Below, one piece after another: positions 37,633 to 44,197 of a stretch of DNA of 64,000 nt. The stretch comes from Streptomyces sp. NBC_00341 (lineage in GTDB: Bacteria > Actinomycetota > Actinomycetes > Streptomycetales > Streptomycetaceae): NCBI RefSeq assembly GCF_041435055.1, contig NZ_CP108002.1:8494001-8558000 (forward strand). The letters run 5' to 3'. The notes beneath the pieces were generated by a model that was not told the DNA's origin, made no database searches, and saw only the letters and a program-made list of their open reading frames with translations. Position numbers and translations under genes: made by a program. Each line of letters begins with the position of its first letter. The stretch's first letter is position 1.

Positions 37633-38016
37633 TCAGTGAGGTGAAGCGCCCTCGGCACGGGCGACCTTGCGGGCCCACATGACCAGGGGAATCTGCAGGG
37701 GCAACCGGCCGAGGGCCGCGGCCCTCGGCACGGCGGGGGAGTGCCGCGCGTCGAGGGCCATCTGGACGTTGGCGGGAAAGACGGCGACGAAGAACCCGGC
37801 CGTCGCACGGGCCGCGATCGGGCGCGTCCTGGGGTGGACCAGTCCGGCGGCGAGCGCGAACTCGACCACCCCGCTCCCGTACGTCCACGCACGCGGCGAA
37901 CCGGGCAGGATCCTCGGAACGGTCCCGTCGAACACCTTCGGCACCGCCAGGTGGAGGGCTCCGGCTCCGGCCATCAGCCCGGCGAGGAGGAAGGGGGAAC
38001 GGCTCGTCCGGGACAT
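37633..38016 (-). CDS. DoxX-like small membrane protein
   Basis: The 127-aa product has four predicted membrane segments (SPFLLAGLMAGAGALHLAV, GVVEFALAAGLV, AARATAGFFVAVFPANVQMA, LPLQIPLVMWA). The motifs WTYGSGVVEFALAAGL and FPANVQMALDA are typical of DoxX/DUF4267-type proteins, which are of uncertain function. The start overlaps the sirtuin stop by 1 nt (TGATG), so the two are co-translated. Confidence 0.82.
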   Translation of the reverse strand: MSRTSRSPFLLAGLMAGAGALHLAVPKVFDGTVPRILPGSPRAWTYGSGVVEFALAAGLVHPRTRPIAARATAGFFVAVFPANVQMALDARHSPAVPRAAALGRLPLQIPLVMWARKVARAEGASPH

Positions 38017-38942
38017 CAGTCTCCTTCGACAGCGGGTTCGCGAGGTGCCGCCGCGGCGTCCTCGACGGGGACGCCCAGCCGGCCGGCCACCGCGGTGAGG
38101 GCCGTTCCCAGCGGGAGCGCGACGCGGGTGACGGCGTGCCGGTCGCCCCGGGTCGGGTCCCGGTTGACGATCAGCACCGGCACTCCGGCCTGGGCCGCCT
38201 GCCGGACGAACCGGAGCCCGGACATCACCGTCAGCGAAGAGCCCAGGACCAGCAGCGAGGACGCCGCTGCGACCAGTTCGCGGCAGTGTGCGACCCGGCG
38301 GGCCGGCACGGCCTCGCCGAAGAACACCACATCCGGTTTGAGGATGCCGCCGCAGACCGCGCAGGGCACCACGTGGAAGTCCCCGACCTGCTCGTCGGTG
38401 AGGTCGGCATCGCCGTCCGGGTTGATCGCGGCGGCCACCGGCCGGAAGCCCGGGTTGGCCTCCTCCAGCCGCCGCGCGAGGTCGCGGCGCGAGCCGATCG
38501 TGCCGCAGGAGAGGCAGACGACCCGGTCCAGGCTGCCGTGGAGTTCCACCGCGTCCTCGCTCCCGGCGGCCTGGTGCAGACCGTCGACGTTCTGGGTGAT
38601 CACCCCCGAGAGCAGGCCCTGCCGCCCGAACGCGGCCACTGCCCGGTGCCCGGCGTTGGGCCGGGCGCGGCCGAAGGTGCGCCAGCCGAGATGGCTGCGG
38701 GCCCAGTACCGGCGCCGGGCCTGGACGCTCGCCGTGAAGTCCTGGTAGGTCATCGGGGTGTGCCGGCTCAGGCTCCCGCCCTCGCCCCGGTAGTCGGGGA
38801 TGCCCGATTCGGTGGAGATTCCGGCCCCGCTGAGCACCAGCACACCGCCGGCGCCCAGCGCATCGGTGACCGGCTCCAGGTCGGTGGTGGCGGGCGGCAG
38901 GTCCTCTGTGGGGGCCCAGCTCAGAGTGGGGCGCATGCGCAT
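38016..38942 (-). CDS. Sirtuin NAD-dependent protein deacylase (Sir2 family)
   Basis: The 308-aa product has the sirtuin signature: VLVLSGAGISTESGIPDYRG, ITQNVDGLHQAAGS, catalytic His in VELHGSLDRVVC, and a four-Cys zinc site (CLSCG and CAVCGG). GILKPDVVFFGEAVP and LVLGSSLTVMSG follow. This fits a class II/U-type bacterial deacetylase using NAD+. It is translationally coupled to the DoxX-like gene. The MRMRPT start offers two ATGs 6 nt apart. Confidence 0.94.
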   Translation of the reverse strand: MRMRPTLSWAPTEDLPPATTDLEPVTDALGAGGVLVLSGAGISTESGIPDYRGEGGSLSRHTPMTYQDFTASVQARRRYWARSHLGWRTFGRARPNAGHRAVAAFGRQGLLSGVITQNVDGLHQAAGSEDAVELHGSLDRVVCLSCGTIGSRRDLARRLEEANPGFRPVAAAINPDGDADLTDEQVGDFHVVPCAVCGGILKPDVVFFGEAVPARRVAHCRELVAAASSLLVLGSSLTVMSGLRFVRQAAQAGVPVLIVNRDPTRGDRHAVTRVALPLGTALTAVAGRLGVPVEDAAAAPREPAVEGD

Positions 38943-39018: not shown

Positions 39019-40062
39019 TCACCTCTGCCGAACCACGGGCACCGACGCGCAGCCGCGGAGCCGCGCGTCCCCGCGGGCCAGGCCCGGCGACGCCCCGGCC
39101 CCCACCACCCGGCCGTCGAGGACCGCGAGCCAGCCGCCTTCGGGCACGGTGGCCCCCAGCCCTTCCGGATCGGCGGGTTCGAGGGCCCTGAGCAATTCCG
39201 GGTCGGGGCCGGCCGGAGCAGCGGCGGCCGCCGCCACCGGGATTCCCGAGCTCCACTCGGCGACGGTCCGCTCCGCTCCCCGGGCCCGTACCCACAGCAC
39301 ATGCTGGAGCACGATCAGCGGGCCGAGCGCCGTGAGCAGCGGAAACGCCCCGGTCAGCGTCCCCAGGGCGAACAGCACACTGACCGCCGCCGACACCGCC
39401 AGGCCGATTCCGGCCGCGAGAAGACCGGCGGCCCGTCCGAAGGCCTTCAGCGCCACCAGCGGGAAGAGCACCAGGAGCAGCAGGTCGCCCAGCCCGAGCG
39501 CCACGGGCGGATCGCCCCGGGTGACGGCCAGCAACGGGGCGAACGGCAGCCCCATCACCTGGACGGCGAACCGGTCCATGACCGACGTGAGCCCCGTCGC
39601 CACCAGGTCGTAGCAGGCGAGCGCGCCCGCGAACCACGCGGCGTGGGCGGAGCGCATGCCGCTCTGCGCCCACATGTTGGCCACCCCCACGACGGCGACC
39701 GCGAGCAGCACATCGGTGAGTACCAGCACGGCGAGTGTCTTGTCCGCGAACGCGCATCCTGCGGTGGCCGCGACCGAGCCCAGCGCGGCGACCCAGGCCC
39801 GGCCCCCGCCGAACAGGGGCGCGAGGGTGAACTGGAGCGCCGCGCAGAGGACCAGACCGAACACGACGGCCACCGCGGCACGGGGCAGTTCCAGATAGAC
39901 CAGGGGAGCGGCCACGACCACGGCGGACACCACGGCGACGTCGGGCAGTTCGTACCGGCCGACCGGCGGGCGGGGCATCCGGACCCGGCCGAAGTAGGCG
40001 GCACCGGCCGCCGTGATCGCGGCGACGCAGACGTTGAGGCCCACCAGGGCGACGCCGCTCAT
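39019..40062 (-). CDS. Polytopic membrane protein with presenilin-like YD/GxGD motifs
   Basis: The 347-aa product has about eight to nine membrane segments in residues 1-270 and a soluble Ala/Pro-rich C-terminus. Two aspartates sit within predicted helices: Tyr151-Asp152 (ACYDLVATGL) and Asp193 in GLGD (VALGLGDLLLLVLFPL). The YD plus GxGD pair is the catalytic signature of presenilin/signal-peptide-peptidase intramembrane aspartyl proteases, and the 41-residue spacing is close to that of SPP. A canonical PAL motif is not evident; TALGPL occurs in a later helix. GxGD is also found in type IV prepilin peptidases. The ATG overlaps the ligase stop by 4 nt, and the gene ends the peptide-gene operon. 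Protease activity is inferred only. Confidence 0.75.
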   Translation of the reverse strand: MSGVALVGLNVCVAAITAAGAAYFGRVRMPRPPVGRYELPDVAVVSAVVVAAPLVYLELPRAAVAVVFGLVLCAALQFTLAPLFGGGRAWVAALGSVAATAGCAFADKTLAVLVLTDVLLAVAVVGVANMWAQSGMRSAHAAWFAGALACYDLVATGLTSVMDRFAVQVMGLPFAPLLAVTRGDPPVALGLGDLLLLVLFPLVALKAFGRAAGLLAAGIGLAVSAAVSVLFALGTLTGAFPLLTALGPLIVLQHVLWVRARGAERTVAEWSSGIPVAAAAAAPAGPDPELLRALEPADPEGLGATVPEGGWLAVLDGRVVGAGASPGLARGDARLRGCASVPVVRQR

Positions 40063-41525
40063 GCCGGACTCACGGCCCGCACCTCTGCCGGGCGCACCGA
40101 CTCGAAGGTACGCTCACGCAGATCGGCACGGACCGGGCCGGTCCGTGGCATCGCGGCCGGGTCGTCATGGAGCACGACGGCGTCCAGCGCGAGGCCCGCC
40201 GCGGTGGCCCGGTCCTCCAGCCTGCCGAGCAGACCGGCTGCGGGCAGTCGGCGGACCAGGACGTGGAGGCGCGGGCCCGGGTCCTCGTCGACCAGGGCGT
40301 AGCGCGCGGGCAGCGGGATGTCCGGCTCCGCCTCCAGCAGGTTCAGCACCGACCAGGTGGTGATCTCGCGGCTCAGCGGACCCGTCCAGCGGCCGAGCAC
40401 CGGCGAGGTGGCGGGCAGGTGGGCCAGCTCGCACTCGGTCGTGCTCCCGGGCAGCCGGACCAGGTCGCCCGTCGCGTACCGCAGGAGCAGGGTGCAGTCC
40501 CGGTAGGGCACGTACGGGGTCTGCACGATGATGCCGACGTCGCCCGGTGGCGTGGGCGCGTGGGTCACGGGGTCGAGTATCTCCAGATGCCCGAACTCGG
40601 TGGTGTGGTGCAGATGCCCCTTGGTACACGGCGTCCCGCCGGACGGCACGGTCTCGGTCATCATGTACGAGGTGGAGATCTTCGCGCCGAGCGCCGCCGA
40701 CGCGCGTTCCTTGAGCGGTTCGGAGAGCACCTCGCCGCCGACACCGATGGACTCCAGGCCGAAGTCGGAGGGCAGCCGGCCGCCCCGCTCCGCCTCCTCG
40801 ACGAGGGCGGAGAGGTAGGACGCGGAGACGGTCAGGTGAGTGATCTGCGGGGCCTTGCCGCGCAGCCCGAGCGGGGTGGCCAGCCGGTCCAGCGCCACGG
40901 CCGGGTCCACGGTGCCGATCTGGACGAAGGAGGCGCCGATCCGGGTCACCGACTCCTCCACGTTGAGCAGCGGCAGGGTCGCCCGGGAGCACCCCGCGTA
41001 CGCGACGGTGTGGCGTGGGCGCAGGCCGAGGCCGAGGACGGCCGAGACGGTGCTCATGGCCACCGCGATCTCGACCTCGGCCCGGGAGTACCAGACCGTG
41101 GTGGGGGTGCCGCTCGTGCCCGTGGTGAGCGCCATCAGCGCGGGAGCGGAGACGGCGGACACGAAGGCGGCCGGCAGTCCGCGCAGGGCCGCCTTCGGTG
41201 TGACCGGCACCTGGTCCCAGGTCTCCGGTGTGAGGGTGCCCGGGTCGAGCGCCAGGCTGTCGAACGTTCGGCGGTAGTACGCCGTGTGCCGGGCCGCGGC
41301 CCGCGCCGTGGCCCGCAGGCTGCGCTCGGTCACGGTCCGCCGTACAGCGGGGTCGACGGCCCCCGCCTGGCCGGGCAGCAGGGCCGAGTCCGCGCCCGGC
41401 TCCCCGAATTCCGCGAGGGTCGCGACCAGGTCCCGGGCGATGCGCTCCAGGTCCTGCGGGCGGATGCGGCGGTTGCGCAGGATCGCCGCGCCGTACCGGA
41501 GCTGGCTGAGCGCGGTCGCGAACAA
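40059..41525 (-). CDS. Adenylate-forming ligase, phenylacetate-CoA ligase (PaaK)/LuxE-like
   Basis: The 488-aa product starts at a TTG with a strong AGGAGG site 5 nt upstream. A TTGTSGTPTTVWYS phosphate-loop motif, GVGGEVLSEPLKERA, ISTSYMMTETVPSGG (adenylate-binding T-E motif) and LLRYATGDLVRL identify the PaaK/LuxE/F390-synthetase branch of the ANL superfamily. These enzymes adenylate a carboxyl group and pass it to CoA, a protein or a peptide. There is no carrier domain and no phenylacetate pathway nearby. Its place between a 22-codon peptide gene and a GxGD membrane protein suggests that it activates the peptide's C-terminus or an acyl/aryl group for attachment to it; this is inference. 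Confidence 0.85.
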   Translation of the reverse strand: MFATALSQLRYGAAILRNRRIRPQDLERIARDLVATLAEFGEPGADSALLPGQAGAVDPAVRRTVTERSLRATARAAARHTAYYRRTFDSLALDPGTLTPETWDQVPVTPKAALRGLPAAFVSAVSAPALMALTTGTSGTPTTVWYSRAEVEIAVAMSTVSAVLGLGLRPRHTVAYAGCSRATLPLLNVEESVTRIGASFVQIGTVDPAVALDRLATPLGLRGKAPQITHLTVSASYLSALVEEAERGGRLPSDFGLESIGVGGEVLSEPLKERASAALGAKISTSYMMTETVPSGGTPCTKGHLHHTTEFGHLEILDPVTHAPTPPGDVGIIVQTPYVPYRDCTLLLRYATGDLVRLPGSTTECELAHLPATSPVLGRWTGPLSREITTWSVLNLLEAEPDIPLPARYALVDEDPGPRLHVLVRRLPAAGLLGRLEDRATAAGLALDAVVLHDDPAAMPRTGPVRADLRERTFESVRPAEVRAVSPA

Positions 41526-41540
41526 GGGAGCCTCCTGACG

Positions 41541-41570
41541 CCTGGACCGGGACTGAGATCCCGGTCCAGG
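41541..41570 (-). terminator. Intra-operon hairpin (attenuator-like) between peptide and ligase genes
   Basis: A perfect 12-bp stem (41541-41552 with 41559-41570) with a 6-nt loop lies 14 nt after the peptide stop and 15 nt before the TTG of the ligase. Partial termination here would give more peptide transcript than enzyme transcript, a layout common after precursor-peptide genes. Confidence 0.75.
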
Positions 41571-41584
41571 CCGGGGCTGATCCG

Positions 41585-41653
41585 TCAGACCATGCTGGCG
41601 AACATCGCCGCCGTGAGCGTGCTGAACGCGTACTTGATGTAGTGCTTGACCAT
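41585..41653 (-). CDS. 22-residue hydrophobic peptide; candidate signal or RiPP precursor
   Basis: This tiny gene has ATG at 41653, TGA at 41585-41587 and a well-placed AGAAGGGAGATC ribosome-binding site. The product starts MVKHYIKYAF and ends TAAMFASMV: a cationic, aromatic N-terminal third followed by a hydrophobic, transmembrane-like stretch. It contains no Cys. It is followed by a hairpin and then by the adenylating ligase and GxGD membrane-protein genes, the order expected for a modified and processed peptide. It has no obvious leader peptide or double-Gly motif. The codon set is typical of the genome, and the start codon, ribosome-binding site and stop are all coherent, which supports translation. 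Confidence 0.72.
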   Translation of the reverse strand: MVKHYIKYAFSTLTAAMFASMV

Positions 41654-41745
41654 GGTGGATCTCCCTTCTCCGGGCCGCCCCTCAGGGCGGCTGGGCTCCA
41701 TGTGGCGCACTCCCGGCCGAGGACGGCCGGTCGATGAACGAGACA

Positions 41746-42474
41746 TTAGAGGAGCGGAGTTGATCCATCAACGGATCCTTCCGACTTGCCCGGAGCAGCA
41801 GGAGTTCCGCTCCGGGCATCGGGCCGCCGGCGAGCGAGGAGGAGGCCCCCGAGCTTGCTCTCGGCCGAGGTGAGGGTGCGCTGCACCTCGACGTCGAATC
41901 CGGCCTCTTCGAGCCGGGCGGCCAGCTGACCGGGCCGGCGCCGGTGCACGTACACCTTCATCGGGTGGCCGCCGTACCCCTGCGTCTTCAGCTTCCGCTC
42001 GTCCCCGACGTGGAAGCTGAGCAGCAGCGGGCCGCCGGGCCTCAGCACACGGCGGAAATGCGCCAGGACCGGATCGATCTCCTCGTCGGGGACGTGGATG
42101 AGCGAGTACCAGGCGATCAGCCCGGCCACAGAGCCGTCGGTGAGACCGAGCTCCGTCATCGACCCGGGTTCGAACCGCAGGCCGGGGTGGTCACGCCGGG
42201 CCACCTCGATCATCCCGGGGGACAGGTCGATCCCGAACGCGTCCAGGCCCAGCCCGTGCAGGTGGGCCGTGATCCTGCCCGGCCCGCACCCCATATCCGC
42301 GACCGGGCCTTCGCCGTTCTCGCGCACCCGGGCGGCGAACAGCGCCAGTACGGCGCGTTCTTCAGGCGTGTCGTCCAGGAGGTTCCGCACCTGGTCCGCG
42401 TAGCTGTCGGCCACGGTGTCGTAGGACTCCCGGGTGTCCGCCAGCCAGTTGTCAGTGTTCGGTTCGAGTTCCAC
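41746..42474 (-). CDS. Class I SAM-dependent methyltransferase
   Basis: The 242-aa product has motif I VADMGCGPGRITAHLHGLG, motif II acidic FGIDLSPGMIEVAR, GLIAWYSLIHVPDEE (motif IV) and LRPGGPLLLSFH (post-motif). This is the common Methyltransf_11/25 type; the substrate is not deducible. It is 92 nt upstream of the 22-codon peptide gene on the same strand. It may belong to that operon, although two small GC-rich hairpins lie in the gap. The gene ends with TAA. Confidence 0.88.
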   Translation of the reverse strand: MELEPNTDNWLADTRESYDTVADSYADQVRNLLDDTPEERAVLALFAARVRENGEGPVADMGCGPGRITAHLHGLGLDAFGIDLSPGMIEVARRDHPGLRFEPGSMTELGLTDGSVAGLIAWYSLIHVPDEEIDPVLAHFRRVLRPGGPLLLSFHVGDERKLKTQGYGGHPMKVYVHRRRPGQLAARLEEAGFDVEVQRTLTSAESKLGGLLLARRRPDARSGTPAAPGKSEGSVDGSTPLL

Positions 42475-42584: not shown

Positions 42585-43925
42585 TCAGACCGGTTCCGGC
42601 AGTGGCTCGGGTTGCCGCGCCGGGGCGGTCTTCGGTTCCCACTGTTCGGTGGTCCGCACGTAGCCGTGGATCACCGAGGCCATCGCGAGGACCAGAAGCG
42701 GGCCGAACACCCAGGGATGGTGGGCCATCGGCAACGACAGATAACGGTACGACAGCAGGAGCGCGGCGAAGACGGCGACGCCGTAGGCGACCAGCTTGAC
42801 TCCCGACCGGTCCCAGCCGCGGTCGAACGTGCGCAGACCCGCCTCGATCGTGAGCGTGAACACCACGCCCGCGATGATGTCCGCGCCGTAGTGATAACCG
42901 AAGCCCAGCGTCGCGCAGAGGGTGGCGATCAGCCAGAACGTGCCCGCGTACCGGAGGGTCCGGGGGCCCTTGCGGGAATGGATGAAGATGCAGGTGGCCC
43001 ATGCCGTGTGCAGGCTGGGCATGCAGTTGCGCGGAGTGATCTCGTCGAACGACATGTGGTGCGGAGCGGTGATCTGCGGCATCGTGTTCGGCCACATGTT
43101 GGCCACCGCCCAGTGCCCGCCGTCGGCACCGTAGGCGAAGACCGGCCCGACCACCGGGAAGAGCACGTAAATGCCGGGCCCGAGGAGACCTATGAGCAGG
43201 AAGGTGCGCACCAGATGGTGGCCGGGGAAGCGGCGGTCGGTCGCCACATTGCGCAGCTGGTACAGCGCGACGACGACCGCGGCGACCGCGAGCTGCGTGT
43301 AGACGGAGTCGAGGAACGCGTCCCCGACCGGGCCGGTGGCCTGGATCATCCGGCCCACCAGCCATGAGGGGTTGCCCAGTGCGTGATCGGCGGTCGCGAC
43401 GTACTGGTCGAGCACGGCCGGGCGCGTCTTCGAAGTGATGAGCAGCCAGGTGTCACCGGTCTTGCGGCCCGTCACCAGCAGCAGACCGAGGCCGACGCCC
43501 TTCAGCAGCAGGATGCGTTCCTGGCCCGTACGGCGTGTGACGGCGATGACCCCGCAGCCCACGATCACCCACAACGCCCCGTTGCCGAAGGGGTGGCCGT
43601 GGGTCACCCTGGCGTCGGCCGCCCAGCGCACCAGCAGAATGACGAGATCGATTCCTATCGCGGTACCCATCGCGATGAACCGTTGCCGCCAGGTGAGCAC
43701 CACCATCATCAACGCCATGCTGGCGTAGAGCAGGAAGCCCGACTGAGGGGCGACTATGACCTCTTGGGCCTGGGTGGTTATCGGCCCCGGCAGTCCGTAA
43801 TGACGTGCGGCGATCTCCAGCGCGACCAGGAACCCGAGGGTCGCCACGGCCGCCGTGCCCCACAGTATCGCTCTTGGCCGACGCCACGGGGCGGTCGTGG
43901 TTCTGCTCGTTATTCGCGAAAACAC
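42585..43925 (-). CDS. PAP2-superfamily membrane protein (inositolphosphotransferase Aur1/Ipt1-like)
   Basis: The product (446 aa from GTG 43925) has ten or more membrane segments and PAP2 motifs: MPSLHTAWATCIF, then FGYHYGADIIAGVVF (His-X3-Asp). The lead-in NMWPNTMPQITAPHH is typical of the Aur1-like family that transfers polar head groups to lipids or dephosphorylates them. The frame stays open to 44195, but that part is AT-richer and unlike the family. A TATAGTAT box lies 8-15 nt upstream of the GTG, suggesting a nearly leaderless transcript. The start is uncertain. Confidence 0.82.
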   Translation of the reverse strand: MFSRITSRTTTAPWRRPRAILWGTAAVATLGFLVALEIAARHYGLPGPITTQAQEVIVAPQSGFLLYASMALMMVVLTWRQRFIAMGTAIGIDLVILLVRWAADARVTHGHPFGNGALWVIVGCGVIAVTRRTGQERILLLKGVGLGLLLVTGRKTGDTWLLITSKTRPAVLDQYVATADHALGNPSWLVGRMIQATGPVGDAFLDSVYTQLAVAAVVVALYQLRNVATDRRFPGHHLVRTFLLIGLLGPGIYVLFPVVGPVFAYGADGGHWAVANMWPNTMPQITAPHHMSFDEITPRNCMPSLHTAWATCIFIHSRKGPRTLRYAGTFWLIATLCATLGFGYHYGADIIAGVVFTLTIEAGLRTFDRGWDRSGVKLVAYGVAVFAALLLSYRYLSLPMAHHPWVFGPLLVLAMASVIHGYVRTTEQWEPKTAPARQPEPLPEPV

Positions 43926-44165
43926 CCGCGATACTATAGGTATCAATTGTTTGGCCGATTTGTTAGATGTTGGCTGAGTAAGACACTCTTCACACCGGAA
44001 AGCCCGATTTTTCGGTGATTGGCGAGCGATGGGGACGCTCGTCGTGAGTTCGAACATGCTAACGGAGGCGTGCGGGTGCGTTCGCTGGTCACGGGTGGTA
44101 CGAAAGTCGGCTCGATCCAGCCCCTGGCCGGTTCTCCGTCGGCGGGGAAAGGGCGGCGCGAAGAG

Positions 44166-44197
44166 CTGTGCCCTCACCGCGGGCGGCGAGGGCACAG
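44166..44197 (-). terminator. Hairpin after the DUF4232 gene
   Basis: A 10-bp perfect stem (44166-44175 with 44188-44197) with a 12-nt loop follows the DUF4232 gene stop on the minus strand. Confidence 0.65.

Follow-up and report, generated by a model that had tools for sequence, protein, structure and literature searches.

What is made by three small, adjacent genes that encode a 22-residue peptide, an adenylating ligase and a polytopic membrane protein? The question is raised by a stretch of 64,000 nucleotides (the window) of Streptomyces sp. NBC_00341 (contig NZ_CP108002.1, positions 8494001-8558000 of the 9.06 Mb genome), whose minus strand carries, in this order, a micropeptide gene, a hairpin, a PaaK-like ligase gene and a gene for a GxGD membrane protein. 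The unit, which occurs in soil bacteria akin to Streptomyces, probably makes or processes the micropeptide, and we favor, with a probability of roughly 0.55, the view that it is an autonomous peptide-maturation cassette. In window coordinates, the micropeptide gene (41585..41653; ATG at 41653-41651, TGA at 41587-41585) has 22 codons and encodes MVKHYIKYAFSTLTAAMFASMV, which has a net positive N-terminus and then a short hydrophobic stretch. It is preceded by the ribosome-binding site GAAGGGAG (41661..41668), and purine-rich sites are equally placed in the homologous loci. Behind it lie the hairpin, with 13 perfect pairs, a 6-nt loop and no T-run (41540..41571; arms 41571-41559 and 41552-41540), the ribosome-binding site AGGAGG of the ligase, outside the hairpin (41531..41536), and the gene of the AMP-forming ligase (40059..41525; 488 amino acids). 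The ATG of the membrane-protein gene (39019..40062; 347 amino acids), at 40062, overlaps the ligase stop codon at 40059 by 4 nt; its product has a predicted presenilin/signal peptide peptidase (SPP) fold, with YD at residues 151-152 and GLGD at residues 190-193. The 22-codon gene with its good ribosome-binding site, the perfect hairpin, the TTG start of the ligase at 41525 with AGGAGG at 41536-41531, and the 4-nt overlap had all been called in an initial annotation made from the letters alone, and all of them are present.

A scan of genome contigs with the ligase as query provided 26 homologous loci, 17 with ligases at 74-98% identity (Streptomyces, Actinacidiphila) and nine with ligases at 36-38% identity (Labedaea, Actinocrispum, Rugosimonospora, Nonomuraea and metagenome-assembled genomes). 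A micropeptide gene was found in all 26, no more than 260 nt from the ligase in 25 of them and at -463 in locus L049. A genome-set search located the ligase family in 20 genomes, one of them the window's own. Of 61 genomes, 5 had it at E values no higher than 1.1e-150, and of 295 genomes of the genus, 18 had it at E 1e-60, with three common to both sets; the micropeptide accompanied it in 19 of the 20. The genome without a detectable micropeptide (G676; L075/L083) holds a decayed copy, in which the ligase is truncated and the membrane-protein frame interrupted. Among 72,556 plasmid records three matched, each of them with the micropeptide; the locus, genome and plasmid sets may overlap. Searches of the phylum (1 of 396 genomes) and the class (1 of 394) returned just the window's own genome, and these counts are lower bounds because only 4-5 candidates were scored per listed genome. 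The micropeptide pattern was absent from the 25 loci of other PaaK-like genes used as a control (L006-L030).

The Streptomyces-type micropeptides, represented by 19 distinct alleles from 25 loci, showed a nonsynonymous divergence (pN) of 0.077 and a synonymous divergence (pS) of 0.261, that is, a pN/pS of 0.30. At each of the 26 loci, the spacer between peptide and ligase genes is more stably folded than its 60 dinucleotide-shuffled versions, with a mean z of -3.65 and every z below -1. The micropeptide goes beyond chance because it is present in 26/26 loci, pN is lower than pS and the spacer is structured, and we regard it as practically certain that it is a real gene. Homologous ligases lacking the peptide gene or the hairpin would have refuted the initial annotation, but a peptide gene and a structured spacer were present at every locus, with two weak points, a long and weakly structured spacer in L049 (367 nt, z -1.52, the weakest fold) and a spacer in L065 whose start folds differently. 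Plasmid NZ_CP108387 has no gene listed at the micropeptide position in PLSDB, whose tables are incomplete.

The 32 distinct micropeptides collected are 22-31 amino acids long. They comprise a first type, MVKHYxKYAxSTLTAAMFxxM(V/A) with near variants, the types MSAIVSTLKHTKYVMGSLAAVLFTNCPS and MSAIKTSAKQFKYVMGAMTAVFFATCSAS, a type MSxLISSVKHxRYVLGSLTAVLFSAASGAAL with shorter relatives, and two singletons from organisms of a different taxonomic family within the same order. Their common core is [KR][Y/L]-x-x-[GS]-[STA]-[LMI]-[TSAG]-[AGS]-x-[LMIF]-F, whose last F is found in 32/32. None of the 32 has a lysine or arginine after the basic motif or an acidic residue before it; two carry an acidic residue near the C-terminus. 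No lysine is invariant, the first basic position being arginine in L084 and the second lysine or arginine. The hydrophobic tail spans 14-18 residues in the four peptides measured. As all lysines and arginines stand N-terminal to a short hydrophobic tail, the layout is signal-peptide-like, and the micropeptide appears to resemble a free-standing signal peptide with a cytoplasmic N-terminus.

The membrane protein is predicted to adopt a presenilin/SPP-like fold with nine transmembrane helices, and Y151, D152, G190, G192 and D193 are invariant in an alignment of 93 sequences. In the model, the helices of the YD and GxGD motifs (138-159 and 191-208) are neighbours. The predicted fold and the invariant motifs bear out the YD/GxGD assignment made at the outset. 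P241 is also invariant, right before helix 242-261; the next two residues are LL or AQ instead of AL, which makes the PAL motif approximate. Against Pfam the window protein had no match up to E 10, and against NCBIfam none at E 0.001; the homologue from L051 reached E 0.033 with Presenilin, short of the cut-off, and the named ones among the 120 membrane-protein homologues listed are all hypothetical or uncharacterized. A search with PF06550 gave nothing in the window's own genome and matched in two bacterial control genomes, and we therefore do not claim the first bacterial relative of presenilin. As background, according to a 2010 article (PMC2947513) the archaeal presenilin homologue MCMJR1 has no known physiological substrate, and a second article (PMC8396450) mentions a bacterial presenilin homologue in the context of lipid binding. 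Judged from the fold model and its two aspartates, the membrane protein is very likely to be an intramembrane protease.

The ligase shows the PaaK fold and the ATP-binding motifs, and this match of fold and ATP-binding core upholds the view of it as a PaaK-type adenylating enzyme. The window ligase had no Pfam match, and that of L048 matched AMP-binding just under the cut-off. The A10 lysine of the C-terminal domain serves adenylation in such enzymes of the ANL superfamily; it is absent, as GKxxR, from the nine family ligases compared, whose ends align poorly, and GKxxR is present in three of four PaaK-type comparison proteins, the fourth having another lysine there. In plasmid NZ_CP108387 the ligase is annotated as 'phenylacetate--CoA ligase family protein' and the membrane protein as 'hypothetical protein', names that illustrate how little annotation hints at a unit.

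When loci with at least two flanking genes in common are put together, the 27 loci (the 26 and the window) make up 21 groups, as judged with gene calls from a simple GC-based script and with some short contigs (L031, L034, L055). Besides the cassette, the only neighbour in more than three of the 27 loci was a secreted cupredoxin (8 loci). A profile search placed it upstream of the micropeptide in all nine loci of the distant clade (L048-L056) and, within the flanks available, detected it at no other locus. The ligase and the membrane protein vary together in pairwise identity (r = 0.97 over 19 loci and 0.89 over 83 within-clade pairs). Because the cassette stands in 21 contexts with few recurring neighbours and its divergence is correlated, the unit looks self-contained, consisting of micropeptide, ligase and protease, with the cupredoxin added in one clade. 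An ordinary CoA ligase beside an unrelated membrane protein is ruled out, since the three genes stay together across 21 contexts and diverge in step. The cupredoxin has histidine, cysteine, histidine and methionine at the type-1 copper positions in 7/7 aligned sequences, and two cupredoxins match PF00127 just below the cut-off (E 0.001 and 0.002); being confined to L048-L056, it is ruled out as a universal part. The cupredoxin signal peptide and the mature part are conserved to the same degree (mean pairwise identity 0.52 versus 0.50 in seven sequences), which is unusual for a signal peptide.

How might the three products work together? On the simplest reading, the micropeptide, encoded first, would insert in the membrane like a signal peptide. 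SPP cuts spent signal peptides, and the SPP-like protease would most likely cut the membrane-inserted micropeptide within its G/S/T-rich hydrophobic part. The ligase would most likely adenylate a carboxylate, either that of a small acyl or aryl acid or the one freed by cleavage, and transfer the activated acid so that the micropeptide gains an amide or ester bond. What results would be a released peptide carrying a modification, with a role as a signal or another extracellular factor. Of these steps, it is likely that the micropeptide is a substrate of the membrane protease, and somewhat better than an even chance that the ligase acts on the micropeptide. More tentatively, at slightly under even odds, the cassette would define a new class of bacterial ribosomal peptides, in which a signal-peptide-like micropeptide serves as the dedicated, genetically linked substrate of a protease of the presenilin/SPP type, and an amide-forming ligase derived from PaaK conjugates it, to yield a released, modified peptide with a signalling or metal-related role. 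The metal-related role in that proposal is tied to the cupredoxin that joins the unit in one clade.

The main rival explanation, which we consider rather unlikely, takes the micropeptide as an unprocessed small regulatory or structural subunit of a ligase/GxGD complex whose two enzymes act on another molecule, as CydX is a small subunit of cytochrome bd. Conservation extends over most of the peptide rather than leaving one variable core, there is no invariant lysine, and the secreted cupredoxin, present in 9/9 loci of one clade, could be the real client; all of this would suit a subunit. However, a peptide encoded first with a hairpin behind it suggests an excess over the enzymes, which is better for a substrate than for a stoichiometric subunit, and the signal-peptide-like layout is that of SPP substrates.

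It is improbable that the micropeptide damages membranes and that the protease, the ligase or both neutralize it, in an addiction or anti-phage unit. The peptide is small, basic and hydrophobic, and the cassette is autonomous, patchy (18/295 genomes of the genus), found in many contexts and carried on plasmids, as such a unit would be, but none of the five proteins searched matched PADLOC at E 0.01 and the copper-type protein secreted in one clade fits poorly. A described defence system is likewise set aside for lack of a PADLOC match, undescribed systems being outside its models. With about as little probability, the GxGD protein would be a transporter or scaffold of presenilin-like fold that exports or binds the micropeptide; the fold is a prediction and no exporter is consistently linked to the cassette, points that leave room for such a function, but none of the 93 sequences departs from either aspartate or from its YD or GxGD surroundings, as catalysis predicts.

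The last rival, that of a functionless leader peptide with a transcription attenuator, draws on the strong hairpin between a short open reading frame and the enzyme genes and is nearly excluded, given amino acids conserved amid synonymous change, homologues that stand beside ligases just 36-38% identical, the lack of a run of codons for one amino acid, the lack of a T-run and an uncovered AGGAGG. No terminator-like site with a T-run was found in 41400-41900, which leaves room for a terminator lacking one. Thus the initial annotation stood in its conserved micropeptide/ligase/GxGD unit, its YD/GxGD protein and its PaaK-type enzyme, but not in its 'attenuator'. A stability or partial-termination element favouring excess peptide seems a better fit, and the hairpin probably keeps the peptide message above the enzyme level. 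The distant loci differ in spacer sequence and keep a stem-loop, and among the 24 type-1 loci, when the first 46 nt past the stop were folded, L065 was without the shared stem. In L085 the hairpin-bearing spacer looks, by eye, duplicated in tandem.

Upstream of the micropeptide gene, a promoter-like TTGATG-17-TAATGT on the minus strand (41743..41772) is overlapped at its first hexamer by the palindrome GTTGATGGATCAAC; the element is suggestive only. Placed at -116 to -120 from the micropeptide ATG, the form TTGA..-17-TA...T recurs in 14 of the 23 distinct upstream regions compared, where a GTTGAN4TCAAC palindrome, whole or in part, lies across it; the form was not found in L041-L047, L063 and L065; a stricter promoter scan missed the copy of the window. 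The element is possibly the operator of an unlinked regulator.

The flanking genes were rejected as parts of the unit, a methyltransferase homologue occurring in 3/27 loci (the window, L031 and L036) and a PAP2 gene in two. This PAP2-type protein with DUF5933 (42585-44195, minus strand), encoded upstream of the methyltransferase, is found in L031 besides the window. Directly downstream of the cassette lies a gene for a Sir2-family NAD-dependent deacetylase (38016-38942, minus strand); it too was discarded as a part, falling outside the eight most recurrent neighbour clusters, though a Sir2 gene also follows the cassette in plasmid L088, with three short genes, one of them RHS-related, in between. 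In three Streptomyces genomes (L043-L045) the cassette lies in a core region, within a few kb of genes that we take, from their protein starts, to be EF-G/EF-Tu-like. No tRNA genes or Rfam families were found in the window.

Taken together, the parts have known folds, and the whole matches no known kind tested; we regard the system as new. In the open-licence PMC literature we found no paper on the combination of peptide, ligase and GxGD protein, and print beyond it may differ; searches of Pfam, NCBIfam and PADLOC assigned the membrane protein to no family and matched no defence protein. A predicted protease beside a signal-peptide-shaped peptide would make natural prokaryotic substrates testable in bacteria with three small genes, and would thereby offer a natural bacterial substrate for the family of presenilin, the membrane protease linked to Alzheimer's disease. 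If the ligase works on the micropeptide, new ribosomal-peptide chemistry would follow.

Among known systems, the operons of ribosomally synthesized and post-translationally modified peptides (RiPPs) share with this autonomous cassette a small first gene, a hairpin and then enzymes. Here two enzyme genes accompany a conserved peptide gene, whose product has a putative precursor role; unlike RiPP operons, the cassette has no clear leader/core split, recognized RiPP enzyme or exporter, and modification is putative. Enterococcal pheromones, which derive from signal peptides by cleavage, and Eep offer a second parallel, in which an intramembrane protease goes with a peptide resembling a signal peptide. 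Eep belongs to the zinc site-2-type proteases and the enterococcal pheromone is part of a lipoprotein, whereas the cassette peptide has its own gene and a ligase is added. Compared with the PaaK phenylacetate-CoA ligases and the aryl-acid AMP ligases NatL2, ClxA and AjiA1, the cassette ligase has a conserved 50-residue N-terminal helical extension (EFGxxGxD) and lacks the GKxxR lysine at its poorly aligned C-terminal end. Finally, the membrane protein resembles the presenilin/SPP enzymes, GxGD di-aspartyl intramembrane proteases of MEROPS family A22 (archaeal PSH/MCMJR1, SPPL2a and PSEN1), in predicted fold and in both aspartate motifs, but differs in its 14-17% identity in the aligned rows, its approximate PAL and the lack of a profile match at E 0.001, and in being a bacterial protein encoded together with its candidate substrate.
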